The position numbers were made by a program, and so were the translations under genes. 55,182 nt of DNA from Rhodoferax sp. Lineage in GTDB: Bacteria; Pseudomonadota; Gammaproteobacteria; Burkholderiales; Burkholderiaceae_C. Under the pieces are notes generated by a model. That model was not told the DNA's origin, searched no databases, and saw nothing but the letters and a program-made list of their open reading frames with translations. Of this stretch, positions 14,497 to 20,959 are shown piece after piece. Within the stretch, counting starts at the first letter, position 1, and each line of letters starts with the position of its first letter. The stretch spans positions 1-55,182 of the forward strand of contig VMTC01000015.1 in assembly GCA_013791765.1 (NCBI GenBank), in the 5' to 3' direction.

Positions 14497-15420
14497 ATGC
14501 CAACACCCTGCCTGCCCCCCGATATCCGCATTTTTGAGCGCGGCTGGCTCTCGTCCAACAACATTCTGATTTGTGGGCGTGATGCCTGCGCGCTGATTGA
14601 CAGCGGCTACGTCAGCCATGCGCCCCAAACCCTGGCGCTGGTGCAAGCGGCGCTGCAAGGGCGAACCCTCGATGTGCTGGTCAGCACCCACCTGCACAGC
14701 GACCACTGCGGCGGCAACGCGGCACTGCAAAGCGCGTACCCGGCGCTGGTCACCCATATTCCGCCTGGGCAGGCCGGCCACGTCGAGAGCTGGGACCCGC
14801 AGGCACTGACCTACACGCCGACCGGGCAGAGTTGCCCCCAGTTCCGCTTCGATGCGCTGCTGGCCCCGGGCAGTGAGCTGCGGCTCGGCGACGAGCTGTG
14901 GCAAGTGCACGCCGCACCGGGACACGACCCGCACTCGGTGATCTTGTTTGAGCCGACCTCGCGCACCCTGATTTCGGCCGATGCCTTGTGGCAACGCGGC
15001 TTTGGCGTGGTGTTTCCGGAGCTGGAAGGGCTGGACGCGTTTGAGGCCGTCGGCCAGACCATTGATCTGATCGAGTCGCTGGCGCCCAAGCTGGTGATAC
15101 CCGGGCACGGCAGCGCCTTTGAGGGCGTCACACAAGCCATTGCCGTGGCGCGCGCGCGCCTGGACAGCTTTGTCTCACAACCGGCCAAACACATCAGCTA
15201 CGCGGCGAAAGTGCTGCTCAAATTCAAGCTGCTCGAAGTGCAAGCCATCGCGTTGGAGGAACTCATCACTTGGGCCAGCGCCACGCCCTATTTTTCGATG
15301 ATTTTCGAGCAGCACTTCCCGCAGCAGGATTTTCGGCAGTGGATCGAACAGCTGATTGGCGACTTGATCCGCTCGGGCGCGGCGTCGCGCGCCGGACTGA
15401 TGCTGCGCAATGCCGGATGA
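14497..15420 (+). CDS. Metallo-beta-lactamase-fold hydrolase
   Basis: This 307-residue protein has the MBL-fold metal site HxHxDH in VSTHLHSDHCGG, a later histidine in HAAPGHDPHSV, the bridging aspartate in LISADALWQRGFG and the final histidine in IPGHGSAFEG. The roughly 90-residue C-terminal helical part is typical of the glyoxalase II/lactonase-like branch. No substrate can be assigned. A CGAA-loop terminator follows at once. Confidence 0.88.
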   Translation: MPTPCLPPDIRIFERGWLSSNNILICGRDACALIDSGYVSHAPQTLALVQAALQGRTLDVLVSTHLHSDHCGGNAALQSAYPALVTHIPPGQAGHVESWDPQALTYTPTGQSCPQFRFDALLAPGSELRLGDELWQVHAAPGHDPHSVILFEPTSRTLISADALWQRGFGVVFPELEGLDAFEAVGQTIDLIESLAPKLVIPGHGSAFEGVTQAIAVARARLDSFVSQPAKHISYAAKVLLKFKLLEVQAIALEELITWASATPYFSMIFEQHFPQQDFRQWIEQLIGDLIRSGAASRAGLMLRNAG

Positions 15421-15424
15421 AAGA

Positions 15425-15448
15425 CGGCACCCGAAGGTGCCGTTTCGA
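15425..15448. terminator. Terminator hairpin after the MBL-fold gene and the glcB 3' fragment
   Basis: ACGGCACC-CGAA-GGTGCCGT is a perfect 8 bp stem with a tetraloop at 15425-15444, followed by TTC on the plus strand. It serves the MBL-fold gene. It is also the counterpart of the terminator at 18571-18596, so it belonged to the second glcB 3' end. Confidence 0.75.
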
Positions 15449-15460
15449 TGGAATTGCTTG

Positions 15461-15525
15461 TTTTATAAGCCAAATCAGCCTCCAGCCCTCGTGTCTATTG
15501 CCTAAGCAGCTATCTATTTCATAAG
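15461..15525 (-). repeat. Dispersed repeat copy C, downstream of the glcB 3' fragment
   Basis: Contains AAATCAGCCTCCAGCCCTCG, then TATTGCCTAAGCAGCTATCTAT. It matches the other copies in reverse orientation. It occupies the same position relative to the glcB fragment as copy D does relative to intact glcB, so it was part of the duplicated segment or was acquired before the copies separated. Confidence 0.7.
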
Positions 15526-15529
15526 CACC

Positions 15530-15785
15530 TTAGACGGCCAAAGCCATCACCGCCGCCGCCTTCACCTTCAGCCGCCATGCGTGCAGCAAGGGCTCGGTGT
15601 AGCCACTGGGTTGCGCCAAGCCCTTGAACACCAGATCACACGCGGCCATGTAGGCCATGCTGGTGTCAAAGTGCCCCGCCATCGGCTGGTACAGCGGGTC
15701 ACCGGCGTTCTGCTGATCCACCACCGCCGCCATGCGCTCAAAGGTTTCCTTCACTTGGCGCTGGGTCACGACGCCATGGTGCAGC
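15530..15785 (-). pseudogene. 3'-terminal fragment of a second malate synthase G gene
   Basis: The last 80 or so residues (from LHHGV through [20 protein letters not shown] to [13 protein letters not shown]) are nearly the same as the C-terminus of GlcB encoded at 18683-20959, with differences such as GHFDTS for GNFDTS and GLAQPS for GMAQPS. Similarity stops upstream of LHHG, near 15785, where unrelated sequence begins. The fragment lacks the catalytic regions and cannot work alone. With its own terminator and repeat copy it forms a diverged direct repeat of the intact gene's 3' end, and the two copies bracket the decayed cassette at 15863-18540. Confidence 0.88.
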
Positions 15786-15862
15786 CCGCGCACCCTGTCA
15801 CAAGGATGCAGGTTTTGTGAAGGCACAATGGGCTGATCGAGAAACCCGTCTTAAATTACACA

Positions 15863-16246
15863 ATGGCTCGCATATTTGACAATATTGTCCAGGACTGGCT
15901 GGGCGCTTTGCGCGCCACCCTGCAAGTTTCCAAACGCTCCTATTTTTGCGTGGGTTATCTGAACCTTCGGGGTTGGCAAGCCATTGACGACTTGATTGCA
16001 CCTGGGGACCCTGCCAAGGGCCAAGTTTCTCGTGTCCTGGCCGGCATGCAGCGTCCACCCCACGAAGAAATTCGCAAACTGTACCGACAGTCTCAAGAAG
16101 TTGGTCTGATCGACAACGCCACGGCCAGCCGTCTCAAACCCCAGTGCGCTGCGCACCTGCGTGAGCAAATCACCTTGGGCATTCCTACCGGGCAAGACGA
16201 AGCCAGTTTGCGCCGCTTGGCCCGCCAAGGTTCCAGCGATGATTGA
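15863..16246 (+). pseudogene. N-terminal remnant of a PLD-domain helicase
   Basis: The 127-residue frame begins MARIFDNIVQDWLGALRATL and continues SYFCVGYLNLRGWQAIDDLI. From memory this is the N-terminus of large (about 1,000 residue) superfamily 2 helicases with an N-terminal phospholipase D-like region, often found in restriction or defence islands. It stops after LRRLARQGSSDD, where relatives continue into the PLD motif and helicase, so a deletion has removed the rest. It overlaps the ATPase gene downstream by eight bases. Whether the short product is made is unknown. Confidence 0.65.
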
Positions 16247-17741
16247 GCTCTCCCCCGCCCAAGCCGCCGAACGCATCCCCGCGCTGCTGGCCGCTTCTGA
16301 GAGCCGCACGCTCGACTTCAAACGCATCAGCGGCAAGCAAGGCCGCATGTACGAGGCTGTCTGCGCCTTTGCCAATACCGAGGGCGGTTTGCTGGTGCTC
16401 GGCATTGGCGACGCCAAAGCCATGAAGCCGGGCGACAAGCCGCAGAGCCGCTTGTTTGGCATTGAAGAAAACGCAGAAGGCTTTGATGACTTTCGGCGCG
16501 AACTGCTCAACCGCTTTACCCCCGCCATCACCAAACTGCACTGGATTCGCGTGCCCTGCACGCTGAACAACGGGCAGCCGGGGAGTGTGGTGCTGTTGCG
16601 CGTCGAGAAGAGTGATCAGGTGCACTCCATTGTGGGCAACGGCACCTGGACGCGCATGGATGCCAGCAACCGTGAGCTGAGCGCGGCGGAGATTGCCGAC
16701 TTGGCCTACCAGCGTGGCGTGAAAAGTGCCGAAACGTTGCCGATGCCGGTGGCACTGAACCTGCTGGATTCCGGCGCGTGGCGCAGCTACTGCACTACGC
16801 GCGGTTTAGCTAATGCTGATTTGGCAGTGCGCTTGCCACGGTTGGGCCTTGCTGTGTCTGTGGATGGCGGCTTGCAGCCACTGCTGGCAGCGTTGCTGCT
16901 GTTTGCCGATGAGCCGGGGGCGCTGCTGGCTGGGCAAGGCATGCGGGCGGATATTCGGGTGTTCCATTACCAAGGCAAGGCGGTGCAGCGTGGCGAGGTG
17001 CCTAACCTGGTACTACCGCCAAAAACTATCACCGGCCCGGTGATAGAGCAGATTGCCAAGGCGCAAGCCTACGTGCTGGACCGGGTGGCGCAGGGGTTGG
17101 TGATGGAGGGTTCGGGCTTCAAGACGCGCTACCGTTTCCCGGAACGGGTGATTAAAGAGGCCATTACCAACGCTGTGTTGCACCGCGACTACCGGCTCAA
17201 CCGCGACATCCACATCCGCATTTTTGATGACCGGGTGGAGGTGAAAAGCCCGGGGCGGCTGCCCGGCAATCTGACGCCTGCCACCGTCGACAAAGCAGGC
17301 TCTGTGCCGCGCAACAGTTTGCTCGCGCGACACTTGCGCGAGTTTCCCAATCCGCCCAATGTGGATGCGGGCGAGGGGGTGCCCATGATGTTTGCGCAAA
17401 TGGAACAGGCCAAACTGTACGAGCCGCTGTACCGCTAGCAACTGGATGGGGCGGTGCCTACGCTGCTGGTGACGTTGCTGAACGAAGAGCGCCCACCGCC
17501 GTGGGTGCAGGTGAGTGACTGGATTGACCGCAATGGCCCGATTGCCAACAGCAAACTGCGGGAGATTTCGGGGCTGGATACGTTGGCAGCCTCCAAGCAG
17601 TTGCGGCAGTGGGTCGTGCAAGGCGTGTTGGTGGCGCTGCCCGCCGCTTCACGCCAACAGGCCAGTTACACCAAACCTGAGCTGGCCGAGCTGGCGGATT
17701 TGTCTCTTTCATTATCTTTTGGCTTGGATAATGAAATTTGA
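16239..17741 (+). pseudogene. AlbA/Schlafen-type ATP-binding protein gene with an in-frame amber codon
   Basis: The start at 16239 gives MIELSPAQAAERIPALLA, with the AlbA_2 (Schlafen-type ATP-binding) domain at about residues 20-150 (SRTLDFKRISGKQGRMYEAV, FANTEGGLLVLGI). A GHKL-like ATP-binding segment lies at about 300-370 (FPERVIKEAITNAVLHRDY, DRVEVKSPGRLPGNLT). The frame meets TAG at 17436-17438 after KLYEPLYR. It then continues without shift to 17741 with typical C-terminal winged-helix sequence (SDWIDRNGPIANSKLREISG). A single CAG-to-TAG change would explain this. A GTG at 17454 could start the C-terminal part separately. Proteins of this family are thought to act as transcription regulators or defence ATPases. 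Confidence 0.75.
17708..17735. repeat. Palindromic site 1, TTCATTATC-N10-GATAATGAA
   Basis: Perfect 9 bp arms around a 10-base spacer, covering the last codons and stop of the AlbA-type ATPase gene. The same arms and spacer length recur at 18433-18460. Single arms also occur at 17783-17791 and, as TTTATCCATGAA, across the start codon of the DprA-like gene. Confidence 0.75.
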
Positions 17742-17751
17742 AGTGCAATAA

Positions 17752-17773
17752 AACCTATATGTATCAATAGGTT
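17752..17773. promoter_or_regulatory. 7 bp dyad in the DprA-like gene upstream region
   Basis: AACCTAT and ATAGGTT are separated by eight bases, about 40 bases upstream of the start at 17811. Together with the TTCATTATC half-site at 17783-17791 this suggests an AT-rich operator and promoter region. Confidence 0.35.
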
Positions 17774-17810
17774 ATGTCATTGTTCATTATCCAAAGCTGT
17801 ATCTTTATCC

Positions 17811-18314
17811 ATGAAAACCTGGCACGCCACCCACCAAAGTCTGGCCCTGACTGGCGTGGGTGGGCAAGCCTTGCTGACGCAACCCATGATGGCCTTCTTC
17901 GCCTCCCGCCAGTGCCCCGGCACGGCCATTCGAGCGGCCATTGACTGGGCTTTGCAGCAGGCCCAGGCTCGGCAGGTCGTGATTAGTGGCTTTCATGCAC
18001 CGCTGGAGCAGTCGGTGTTGACGGTGCTGCTGCAAGCGCGCAGCCCTGTGGTGGTTGTATTGGCCCGGCCAGTCGACGGTGCCAAGCTGCCGTCCGCGTG
18101 GGTTGAACCCATGGCGCAGGGTCGTGTGGCAGTGGTTAGCAGCGTTGCCACAGCCAAGCGACTCACTGTTGAGAGGGCTACCTTGCGTAATGCGCAGGTA
18201 GCACAACTGGCTACCAACATCGTGGTGGCGTACGCGAGTTCGGGTGGAAGTCTGGCGGATTTGTTGGCGAAGTGGCGGCACACAATGCTTATCGAGATGT
18301 TCAAAAAGGACTGA
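17811..18314 (+). CDS. DprA/Smf-like Rossmann-fold protein
   Basis: The 167-residue product resembles the nucleotide-binding core of DprA/Smf: GVGGQALL at the N-terminal glycine loop, VVISGFHAPLEQSVL, and the late motif LRNAQVAQLATNIVVAYASSGGSL, which corresponds to RN-x-IIA-x-LS in DprA. It is only about half the size of a full DprA and lacks the C-terminal winged helix. Such short DprA-like proteins occur in defence-type operons next to AlbA-type and AAA ATPases, as here. The function is not known. The start lies inside a TTTATCC/ATGAA half-palindrome. It is the only undamaged reading frame in the cassette. Confidence 0.7.
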   Translation: MKTWHATHQSLALTGVGGQALLTQPMMAFFASRQCPGTAIRAAIDWALQQAQARQVVISGFHAPLEQSVLTVLLQARSPVVVVLARPVDGAKLPSAWVEPMAQGRVAVVSSVATAKRLTVERATLRNAQVAQLATNIVVAYASSGGSLADLLAKWRHTMLIEMFKKD

Positions 18315-18318
18315 TTCA

Positions 18319-18420
18319 ATGATTACCCAACTGACGCTGCGTAACTTCAAAAGTATTGGCGAGCAAAGCTACCAGACGCGCCACGTCATCACGCGCATGC
18401 CACCAAGCCGGATACGTTAG
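18319..18420 (+). pseudogene. Truncated AAA-family ATPase (RecF/OLD-like N-terminus)
   Basis: The 33-residue frame begins MITQLTLRNFKSIGEQSYQ, the typical opening of RecF/OLD-type AAA ATPases just before the Walker A loop. It then diverges and ends at TAG before any P-loop, so most of the gene is deleted. It starts four bases after the stop of the DprA-like gene, which shows that the two were one operon. Confidence 0.7.
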
Positions 18421-18432
18421 AAAAGTAGGCAG

Positions 18433-18460
18433 TTCATTATCTTTGGGCTCGGATAATGAA
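18433..18460. repeat. Palindromic site 2, TTCATTATC-N10-GATAATGAA
   Basis: Identical arms and spacer length to site 1, 725 bases away. The two sites bracket the DprA-like gene and the AAA remnant. Confidence 0.75.
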
Positions 18461-18509
18461 ATCAAAGATCACGAAAACATGTTTATTTTCAATGAGGTAT
18501 CGATTTTGT

Positions 18510-18536
18510 CATTATCTTTTTTTGGATAAATGAACA
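18510..18536. repeat. Palindromic site 3, degenerate
   Basis: TCATTATC and GGATAAATGA are separated by a T-tract. It is a less perfect version of sites 1 and 2, and the T-rich spacer could also act as a terminator for the cassette. Confidence 0.5.
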
Positions 18537-18570
18537 GTTCTCAGAAGCCAAATCTTCGTCGCCTGAATTG

Positions 18571-18596
18571 AAAACGGCACCCGAAGGTGCCGTTTT
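18571..18596 (-). terminator. Bidirectional terminator of glcB
   Basis: AAAACGGCACC-CGAA-GGTGCCGTTTT is a perfect 11 bp stem. On the minus strand the loop reads TTCG, a very stable tetraloop, and the stem ends in a T-run. It lies about 87 bases past the glcB stop and matches the hairpin at 15425-15444. Confidence 0.9.
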
Positions 18597-18608
18597 ATGA
18601 GCTTAAGA

Positions 18609-18667
18609 GGAAAATTAGGCTCTGGCCCTCGTATCCATTGCGTATATAGCTACCAAATCAATAGCAA
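18609..18667 (-). repeat. Dispersed repeat copy D, between glcB and its terminator
   Basis: Contains TTAGGCTCTGGCCCTCGTAT, then TATATAGCTACC and AATCAATAGCAA. It lies in the 3' untranslated part of glcB, 16 bases past the stop. Confidence 0.75.
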
Positions 18668-18682
18668 ACTGCCGCAATGTCA

Positions 18683-20959
18683 TCAAACCGCGGGAGCAAC
18701 CGGTTGCGTCATCTGTGCTGCCGCCGCCTTCACCTTTAACCTCCAGGCGTGCAGCAGCGGCTCGGTGTAGCCACTCGGTTGCGCCATTCCCTTGAACACC
18801 AGATCGCAGGCGGCCATATAGGCCATGCTGGTGTCAAAGTTCCCGGCCATCGGCTGGTACAGCGGGTCGCCGGCATTCTGCTGGTCCACCACGGCGGCCA
18901 TGCGCTCGAACGTCTCCTTGATCTGCGCGGCGCTCGCGACGCCATGGTGCAGCCAGTTCGCCATGTGCTGGCTGCTGATGCGCAGCGTGGCGCGGTCTTC
19001 CATCAGGCCAACATTGTGGATGTCAGGCACCTTGGAGCAGCCCACGCCCTGGTCGATCCAGCGCACCACGTAGCCCAGAATGCCCTGCGCGTTGTTGTCG
19101 AGCTCCTGCTGAATCTCGGCGGCGCTCCAGTTGGTGCTGGTCGCCAGCGGCACTTGCAGCAGGCCGCTCAGCAAGTTGTCGCGCTCCTTGTCGGCGTTGA
19201 CCTTTTCCATTTGCTTTTGAATGTCGCTCACCAGCACCTGGTGGTAATGCAGCGCGTGCAGCGTGGCGCCGGTCGGGCTGGGCACCCAAGCGGTGTTGGC
19301 ACCGGCCAGCGGGTGCGCAATCTTTTGCTTGAGCATGTCTTTCATCAGGTCCGGCATGGCCCACATGCCTTTACCGATCTGCGCCCGGCCGCGCAGGCCG
19401 CAGGACAGGCCGACCAGCACGTTGTTGCGCTCGTAGGCGGCAATCCAGGCGCTGGTTTTCATGTCGCCCTTGCGGATCATGGCGCCGCCCTGCATGGCGC
19501 TGTGCATCTCGTCGCCGGTGCGGTCCAGGAAGCCGGTGTTGATAAAGGCCACGCGGCTGGCCGCAGCGCCAATGCAGGCCTTGAGGTTGACGCTGGTGCG
19601 GCGCTCTTCGTCCATGATGCCGAGCTTGACGGTGCTCTCAGAAAGGCCGAGCATTTTTTCGACCCGGCCAAACAGCTCATTGGCAAAAGCCACTTCTTGC
19701 GGGCCGTGCATTTTGGGTTTGACGATGTAAACCGAGCCCTTGCGCGAGTTGCGGATGGCGTCCTTGGCGCTGCGCTTGAGGTCATGCATGGCGATGGTGG
19801 TGGTGACGATGGCGTCCAGGATGCCTTCGGGGATTTCGCGCGTCTCGCCGGCCTTGTCGGTGTACAGAATGGCCGGATTGGTCATCAGGTGGCCAACGTT
19901 GCGCACAAACATGAGTGAGCGCCCGTGCAGCACGACTTGTTTGCCTTTGCCAGCAGGCGGGGTGTAGAGGCGGTCGGCGTTGAGGCCGCGGGTGAAGGTC
20001 TTGTCGCCCTTGGTGACGCTCTCGGTCAGCGTGCCTTGCAGGATGCCGAGCCAGTTGCTGTAGGCCAGCACCTTGTCATCGGCATCGACGGCAGCAATGG
20101 AGTCTTCCAGGTCCAGGATGGTCGAGAGTGCGGCTTCGAGCACCAGGTCGCAGACGCCGGCCGGGTCGCTCGCGCCAATCAGGGTAGCGCGGTCGATGAT
20201 GATGTCCAGGTGCAGGCCGTTGTGCTGCAGCAGCACCGAACTCGGGGCCTTGGCGTCGCCCTGGTAGCCAACCAGTTGCGCCGGGGTCACCAGGCTGGTG
20301 TTCGAGCCATCCGCCAGCTTGACGGCGAGCTTGCCGTCCTTGATGCGGTAGCCGACGGAGTCGACGTGCGAGCCCTTGCGCAGCGGCGCGGTACGGTCCA
20401 GCACATGGCGCGCGTAGGCGATGACCTTGGCACCGCGCTTGGGGTTGTAGCCGCCTTTTTTTCCGACCCTTTCACAGCCTTTGGTCTCGTCAAGCACATC
20501 GGTGCCATAGAGCGCGTCATACAAGCTGCCCCAGCGTGAGTTGGCGGCGTTCAGGGCATAGCGTGCGTTCAGGATCGGCACCACCAGCTGCGGGCCGGCT
20601 TGCACGGCCAATTCAGCGTCGACCTTGGTGGTGGTGATGCGGGCTTTCTTGGGCGGCTCCACCAGGTAGCCGATTCTCTCCAGAAAGGCGCGGTAGGCGC
20701 TCATGCTGTTCGGGGCAGTGCTGTCGCTCATGTTGATCGGGCCGGGATGGGCTGCATGCCAGGCGTCGAGCTCGGTTTGCAGGCGATCACGCTCGGCCAG
20801 CAAGGCGATGTTCTTTGGCGCAAGATCAGCCACGATGGCGTCAACGCCCTTCCAGAATTTGGCAGGGGTGACGCCTGTTCCGGGCAGTACCTGGGTGTCG
20901 ATAAATTGTTGCAGCACAGTGGCAATTTGCAGGCGATGCTTCGGTGTACGTTCGGTCAT
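18683..20959 (-). CDS. glcB: Malate synthase G
   Basis: This enzyme condenses glyoxylate and acetyl-CoA to malate in glyoxylate and glycolate assimilation. The 758-residue product has the GlcB-type layout: an N-terminal clasp, [10 protein letters not shown] and a TIM-barrel core with [11 protein letters not shown], the substrate region [30 protein letters not shown], and the C-terminal plug with [14 protein letters not shown]. It is slightly longer than E. coli GlcB (723), mainly through a loop near residues 70-85 and an Ala-rich tail. Its last 80 or so codons are present again in diverged form at 15530-15785. Confidence 0.96.

Follow-up and report, generated by a model that had tools for sequence, protein, structure and literature searches.

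The 3' end of glcB is probably a recurrent, integrase-free docking site for accessory genes in Rhodoferax and its family

The window analysed here is a 55,182-nucleotide stretch of Rhodoferax sp. DNA (GenBank assembly GCA_013791765.1, contig VMTC01000015.1, positions 1 to 55,182; G000:C111 in our comparison sets, where G-numbers denote genomes and L-numbers loci). In this window glcB, the gene for malate synthase G, has two 3' ends, and a deleted defence operon lies between them. Our results suggest that the glcB 3' end is probably a recurrent, integrase-free docking site for accessory genes, at which cargo and an attached glcB tail enter by homologous recombination.

The intact glcB gene (18683..20959, minus strand) encodes 758 amino acids with the Pfam malate synthase domains, and its last ~280 nt form copy 2. 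Copy 1 is an orphan 3' end (15545..15790, minus strand), recognised from the repeat and from its match to glcB, which corresponds to codons ~667-748 and contains no stop in the aligned codons. The two copies form a direct repeat in the same orientation (15552-15798 and 18720-18966) with 85% identity over 247 nt, and each has its terminator hairpin (copy 1, 15421..15445; copy 2, 18571..18595; no strand assigned), these being 96% identical. The sequence-only reading had described the last 80 or so codons of glcB, a repeat and the terminator as present twice, similar and non-identical; the coordinates bear this out, and the double-ended bracket around the deleted operon is confirmed. Note that the ~50-bp repeat adjoining the terminator (copy 1, 15457..15525; copy 2, 18612..18666; no strand assigned), identified from own-genome matches, is a dispersed one: at least 28 further places in the genome match either copy, a lower bound because 40 of 131 candidates were scored.

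The duplication exceeds what chance would give. The control set comprised 1,075 open reading frames (ORFs) of at least 200 amino acids, glcB genes included; its sources were the retrieved glcB loci, the window and parts of two genomes (~399 kb of the window's own and 400 kb of G010). Truncated downstream copies of a 3' end on the same strand amounted to six glcB cases, one weak match (86 nt, 77%) and two internally repetitive ORFs.

The site also exists empty. In six related loci (G081, G036, G035b, G080, G054 and G015) a metallo-beta-lactamase-fold (MBL) gene is convergent with glcB at a distance of 43-150 bp, so that comparison of the locus in related strains, as the sequence-only reading had proposed, yields a single-gene site free of the cassette. 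The corresponding MBL gene of the window (14497..15420, plus strand; Pfam Lactamase_B) lies beside copy 1. In other loci that have both genes the gap between them reaches 10.9 kb.

How the two ends differ indicates where they came from. Between copy 1 and copy 2 of the window the differences at first, second and third codon positions number 9/4/20 (p 0.002), and other pairs gave 2/4/27 (G010), 9/4/30 (G045), 2/1/8 (G685, p 0.02) and 0/0/6 (G602, p 0.002). In Polaromonas sp. P2-4, which has two orphan tails, the counts were 4/3/14 for the inner (p 0.005) and 6/9/17 for the outer one (p 0.048). In total, seven of the ten gene-end/orphan pairs, that of the window among them, had a significant third-position excess (p <0.05), and the P2-4 outer tail was the only tested orphan to contain stops (two). 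Differences dominated by third positions, in an orphan free of stops, imply that one end came from outside instead of decaying on the spot, and decay of a duplicate is disfavoured by this pattern.

In support of an exchange within the tail, the noncoding part of copy 1, on the MBL side, resembles the sister species G081 and G063, and on the cargo side copy 2 is the native-like one. With these two genomes as references, one switch accounts for 45 of the 59 informative sites (permutation p 0.0002). The identity of each copy to related genes, a measurement of the kind that the sequence-only reading had proposed, gives a divided answer: copy 1 is sister-like towards the terminator, copy 2 towards the gene body, and which of the two is old looks mosaic.

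In G045 (L039) the first ~1,750 nt of glcB have 56-80% identity to the 14 genus members listed, and the last ~350 nt have 75-92%, with G023 reaching 91.7% in the final two intervals of the comparison. To judge from these identities, this gene looks like a visible chimera of a foreign-looking body and a genus-like end.

Orphan ends recur across genomes. Own-versus-own searches were made of 73 glcB loci of the genus, some of them second contigs of one genome, after exclusion of five with the glcB end less than 400 bp from a contig edge and one without glcB. Orphan ends of at least 200 bp were present in 4 of the 73 (the window, G010, G045 and G060), G010 being a single-contig genome, and remnants of 41-84 bp in five more (G019, G069, G058, G065 and G086); the latter have gene clusters in common and may represent one single insertion. 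A 29-bp match in G070 was left uncounted, as was a third tail piece in G010, which is mostly intergenic and may be the dispersed repeat. A short remnant distant from glcB in G036 (L046) was not used either; the one neighbour scanned is a GMC oxidoreductase.

In a sample of the family, the glcB end was found in 343 of 399 genomes and matched more than once in 12. Ten of these, outside the genus, were re-examined. G800 and G685 carry an orphan and the gene on one contig; in G602, G646 and G724 the two lie on different contigs. In G512, G684 and G836 the second match proved to be a contig-end piece of the gene with identical overlaps, and the nature of the one in G791 (95.9% over 121 nt) and of that in G860 (84% over 63 nt) is ambiguous; the count leaves out all five. 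Across a sample of the order, 82 of 399 genomes gave a match, and two matches occurred only in the window's own genome and in G425, there on two contigs. The left boundaries of the orphan tails are scattered over codons ~595-690.

In three genomes the tails are stacked: two orphans stand in tandem with the gene in the complete genome of Polaromonas sp. P2-4 (L158), where glcB is matched in three pieces and may be broken, in a Hylemonella metagenome-assembled genome (L141) and in G685 (L121). In all three arrays identity to the gene is lower for the outer tail than for the inner one (85.5 vs 90.6%, 88.4 vs 92.9% and 79.6 vs 89.0%, respectively).

The inserts measure ~1.5-8 kb and their content varies widely. 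Bracketed cargo includes CHAT-AAA, an alpha/beta hydrolase, a macro-domain protein and DarT in G010 (DarTG with CHAT), Avs2 in G045, a SNF2 helicase with AAA_21 in G685, GmrSD_N with HipA in G800 and the AlbA-DprA cargo in the window, L141 and L158. Other brackets hold genes unrelated to defence, such as SDR, TetR and Crp in G060, a beta-lactamase-fold protein in the G019 group and, in the scanned parts of G602, a sigma factor, GST and YceI. Near further glcB ends we found a type III restriction-modification system (G014), AbiD (G084), Eco57I (G070) and a zeta toxin (G724). As in core-gene hotspots, diverse accessory genes occupy one core position in relatives. No integrase or transposase family was matched in the 48 proteins scanned, which came from the window and from other loci, include some that are not cargo and cover part of the cargo.

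The cargo of the window is decayed, as had been suspected from its sequence. It begins with a stub of a PLD-SNF2 helicase (15863..16246, plus strand), of which 15863-16228 is 82% identical to codons 1-122 of the 1,130-amino-acid PLD/SNF2 helicase of L052; on its own, the 127-codon stub has no Pfam match. The stub seems to be fused to the last codons of a deleted type IIG methyltransferase, its C-terminal SSDD resembling the methyltransferase ends of L052 and L042. Compared with L052, the deletion runs from helicase codon 122 to the methyltransferase end, ~6.4 kb, and removes the type IIG restriction-methyltransferase gene. Next comes an AlbA gene (16239..17438, plus strand; Pfam SLFN_AlbA_2 and HATPase_c_4), stopped by a TAG at 17436-17438 beyond which the frame is open again (17439-17741); it has 88%, 85%, 88% and 56% identity to those of L041, L042, L052 and L133, respectively. 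The DprA-like (SLOG) gene that follows (17811..18314, plus strand; Pfam DNA_processg_A, 5e-9; PADLOC PsyrA, 1e-16) was correctly recognised from the sequence and keeps its frame. The fourth gene named then, a truncated AAA ATPase, fared less well: the 33-codon start (18319..18420, plus strand) is an ORF whose likeness to an AAA ATPase was seen by eye, it had no family match in the Pfam and PADLOC scans, and it was not seen in the relatives compared.

Intact relatives of the operon were found in L052/L136, L139, L144, L146 and L162, in the order PLD-SNF2 helicase, type IIG restriction-methyltransferase, AlbA ATPase and DprA-like gene. Thus the helicase, AlbA and DprA-like genes predicted to co-occur do so, and the fourth member is the type IIG gene. 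That this is a fused type IIG enzyme follows from the L052 protein, which matches PDLC03628 over profile positions 8-1099 of 1,100 (E 1e-265). Among the matches listed for the four operon proteins, the helicase fitted HKD+Snf2 C3a139 best (1e-49) and DrmD (7e-33) and DrmA (8e-14) less well, and the methyltransferase fitted REase_MTase_IIG best, with weaker DrmMI matches; AlbA and the DprA-like protein had no Drm match. The core genes of DISARM are drmA, drmB and drmC. Neither DrmB nor DrmC was among the listed matches, and the operon did not show this core set.

The same operon is linked to glcB ends elsewhere. We examined 41 operon loci (L136-L176), drawn from 80 kept of 171, and nine of them have a glcB match nearby (L138, L141, L143, L144, L145, L146, L147, L158 and L165), so that, including the window, the operon lies beside a glcB end in ten genomes. 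L138, L143 and L165 agree in content with G027, G015 and G724. Four of the ten contigs (L138, L143, L144 and L145) end within the tail, as a repeat could cause.

Two further features of the operon were observed. Firstly, a helicase N-terminal remnant also stands directly before AlbA in L140, L155, L158 and L163, lies farther upstream in L154 and L171 and is fused to a methyltransferase part in L165. These remnants keep merely 32-126 N-terminal codons, apparently after separate losses, as if the operon start had been retained for AlbA expression. Secondly, a 28-bp palindrome, TTCATTATC-N10-GATAATGAA, with invariant arms and a variable centre, is located at the AlbA 3' end and/or 3' of the DprA-like gene. 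The window has two copies (17708..17735 and 18433..18460, no strand assigned), and TTCATTATC occurs in it five times against 0.09 expected. The palindrome matches 24 of 255 loci, some of which are duplicate records; besides the window, loci that have it include L041, L042, L052, L053, L133, L137, L140, L141, L146, L149, L150, L153, L158, L165 and L167. It might serve the AlbA protein as an operator, or the dprA unit as a site for recombination. Separately, genes of the same two clusters (DUF6978 and DUF1828 in L042) lie behind glcB in G049 (L103) and inside the AlbA operon in G015 (L042).

We propose the following course of events. A cassette would consist of cargo and the adjacent glcB 3' tail, with the terminator included in the window and in G685. 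Recombination within the tail, presumably of the RecA type, would give glcB a working end from another lineage, and the old end would remain beyond the cargo as a scar. In a cassette lying between two tails both arms match the same short conserved target, so it could enter a relative's glcB whatever the gene's other neighbour. Later arrivals would push earlier ones outward, the newest adjoining the gene, and arrays of cargo and tails would build up. The founding bracket may have been made by one homologous and one illegitimate junction. In this genome the PLD-SNF2 helicase/type IIG/AlbA/DprA cassette would have arrived in this way and then lost ~6.4 kb, AlbA would have gained its stop after arrival, and the DprA-like frame would have stayed open. 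The suggestion of an incoming segment that supplied a glcB 3' end and thereby made the gene whole again is supported by the six empty sites, the third-position excess in 7 of 10 pairs and the brackets around other cargo.

Several observations weigh against this proposal. Neither a long nor a 41-84 bp orphan is present in 64 of the 73 genus loci, many of which have genes inserted behind glcB, and L146 and L147 have no second tail. In three of the ten pairs the third-position excess falls short of significance: G060 shows a trend (p 0.086), L141 has too few sites, and in G800 the two tails have nearly the same coding sequence and differ at the edges of the alignment, which a target duplication would fit too. 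Over its whole coding part copy 2 is nearer than copy 1 to the sister species, and four references weaken the mosaic (44 of 64 sites, p 0.015; Fisher test of coding against noncoding, p 0.14). The G010 mosaic against G023 runs in the same direction and is weak (20 of 27 sites, p 0.044). Since the sites are not independent, the mosaic is moderate evidence for exchange within the tail. No donor of the imported end was found, the G027 tail being just 75.6% identical to copy 2. Finally, freedom from integrases applies to the scanned proteins; other cargo ORFs, including those between the L141 and L158 tails, lay outside the scan.

Another possibility could be a one-sided event in this lineage, in which a linear fragment from a relative, with cargo and a glcB end, recombined homologously in glcB and, at its other end, was joined illegitimately inside the recipient glcB ~80 codons before the stop, with no pre-formed bracket or circle. 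The different boundaries in different genomes are as such an event would leave them, and orphan-free insertions behind glcB fit junctions outside the gene. We consider it rather unlikely. Next to the cargo, copy 1 looks foreign, not native (moderate evidence), and the two-tail arrays, together with the same operon at glcB ends of other genera, suggest joint movement of cargo and tail.

It is improbable that a recombinase, later lost, integrated the cargo site-specifically at glcB. The model for such an event is prophage e14 of E. coli K-12, which, as described in parts of PMC11148124 and PMC4759930, carries a putative integrase gene, has 11-bp direct repeats at its site and brings a diverged 3' end that restores icd and leaves an orphan end (165 bp with 12 changes; PMC11148124, in part). 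At glcB, likewise, a diverged 3' end restores the frame of a central-metabolism gene and leaves an orphan. However, the glcB boundaries do not fall at one point or share a fixed junction core, and a fixed attachment site was rejected on this spread; variable left boundaries, together with the lack of an integrase match in the scanned proteins, argue against site-specific insertion. The glcB inserts also differ from e14 in size, in carrying defence or other genes and in forming arrays. A phage carrier was tried and rejected: the last 131 residues of GlcB have no relative in viral contigs, and the two phage records that matched, with 89% of the query covered, bear the annotation glcB: malate synthase G. 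A plasmid carrier was rejected as well: in 131 of 137 plasmid records a single place holds 80% of the query or more (30 records were listed, and the six of lower coverage lay outside this check).

It is very unlikely that the resident 3' end was duplicated by the cargo as it inserted, with the copies diverging later. Restriction-modification genes between long, variable direct repeats define such a class (Nobusato et al. 2000, as cited in parts of PMC1643837 and PMC3031569), and the window resembles it in that its insert, which relatives lack, stands between long direct repeats of the target. Repeats of ~98% identity in G800 and G602 would suit it as well, and for G800 it may hold. For the window it is disfavoured: the differences in the window, G010 and G045 are mostly at third positions in stop-free orphans, which a decaying copy would not show. 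Rather than copies of one resident target, the repeats at 85% identity look like functional ends of separate lineages, at one gene across the family and in successive insertions. That one of two tandem glcB genes was replaced by cargo except for its end, as the sequence-only reading had offered, is most improbable in spite of the shared orientation and of a 313-codon second 3' piece on another contig in G646, since two complete copies are seen in no genome among the 77 of the genus that gave a glcB match (contig-cut copies, as in G035, and the G646 piece lie beyond judgement) and six loci have a single-gene empty site.

Among other known systems, many hotspots have no mobile-element genes, and double recombination in both flanking core genes has been proposed for them (2017, PMC5635113, in part); for core defence hotspots, parts of PMC10250203 expect no mobile-element scars and leave their construction to future work. 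The glcB site resembles both in combining one core-gene locus and many cargoes with no mobile-element family match in the scanned proteins. It differs in that the event leaves a visible scar, the end of a gene, and in that a single gene end could act on both sides. Possible signs of raised recombination in the flanking core gene are the mosaic switches (window, G010) and the G045 chimera, in a comparison that covered glcB alone.

In integron arrays, units of cargo and a recombination tail accumulate, the newest next to the platform. The glcB units likewise stack as cargo and tail next to a platform gene; in contrast, their tail is the end of a host gene, and no integrase such as IntI was matched in the scanned proteins (attC was not searched for). 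Tentatively, then, the glcB tail may be a portable, single-target homology arm, and two-tail cassettes may be an integrase-free class of mobile defence that spreads between genera through ordinary recombination and stacks as integron cassettes do, possibly via circles with one hybrid tail. One contig of G602 (C8, L118; 7,841 bp) holds cargo and a glcB tail and has a 130-bp exact overlap of its ends, which recurs at the start of the glcB-carrying contig. It might represent a circle of this kind or a tandem copy, and may be an artefact of the assembly graph.

In the open-licence literature searched, no title presented glcB as an insertion site, which is not proof of absence, nor was any case apparent there that combines a seemingly imported end of a host gene with recurrence at one gene across a family and with stacked tails. 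The scars at glcB keep the order and the ancestry of the arrivals, so the recombination model is directly testable. Moreover, orphan glcB ends provide a simple search key for new defence genes in the family.

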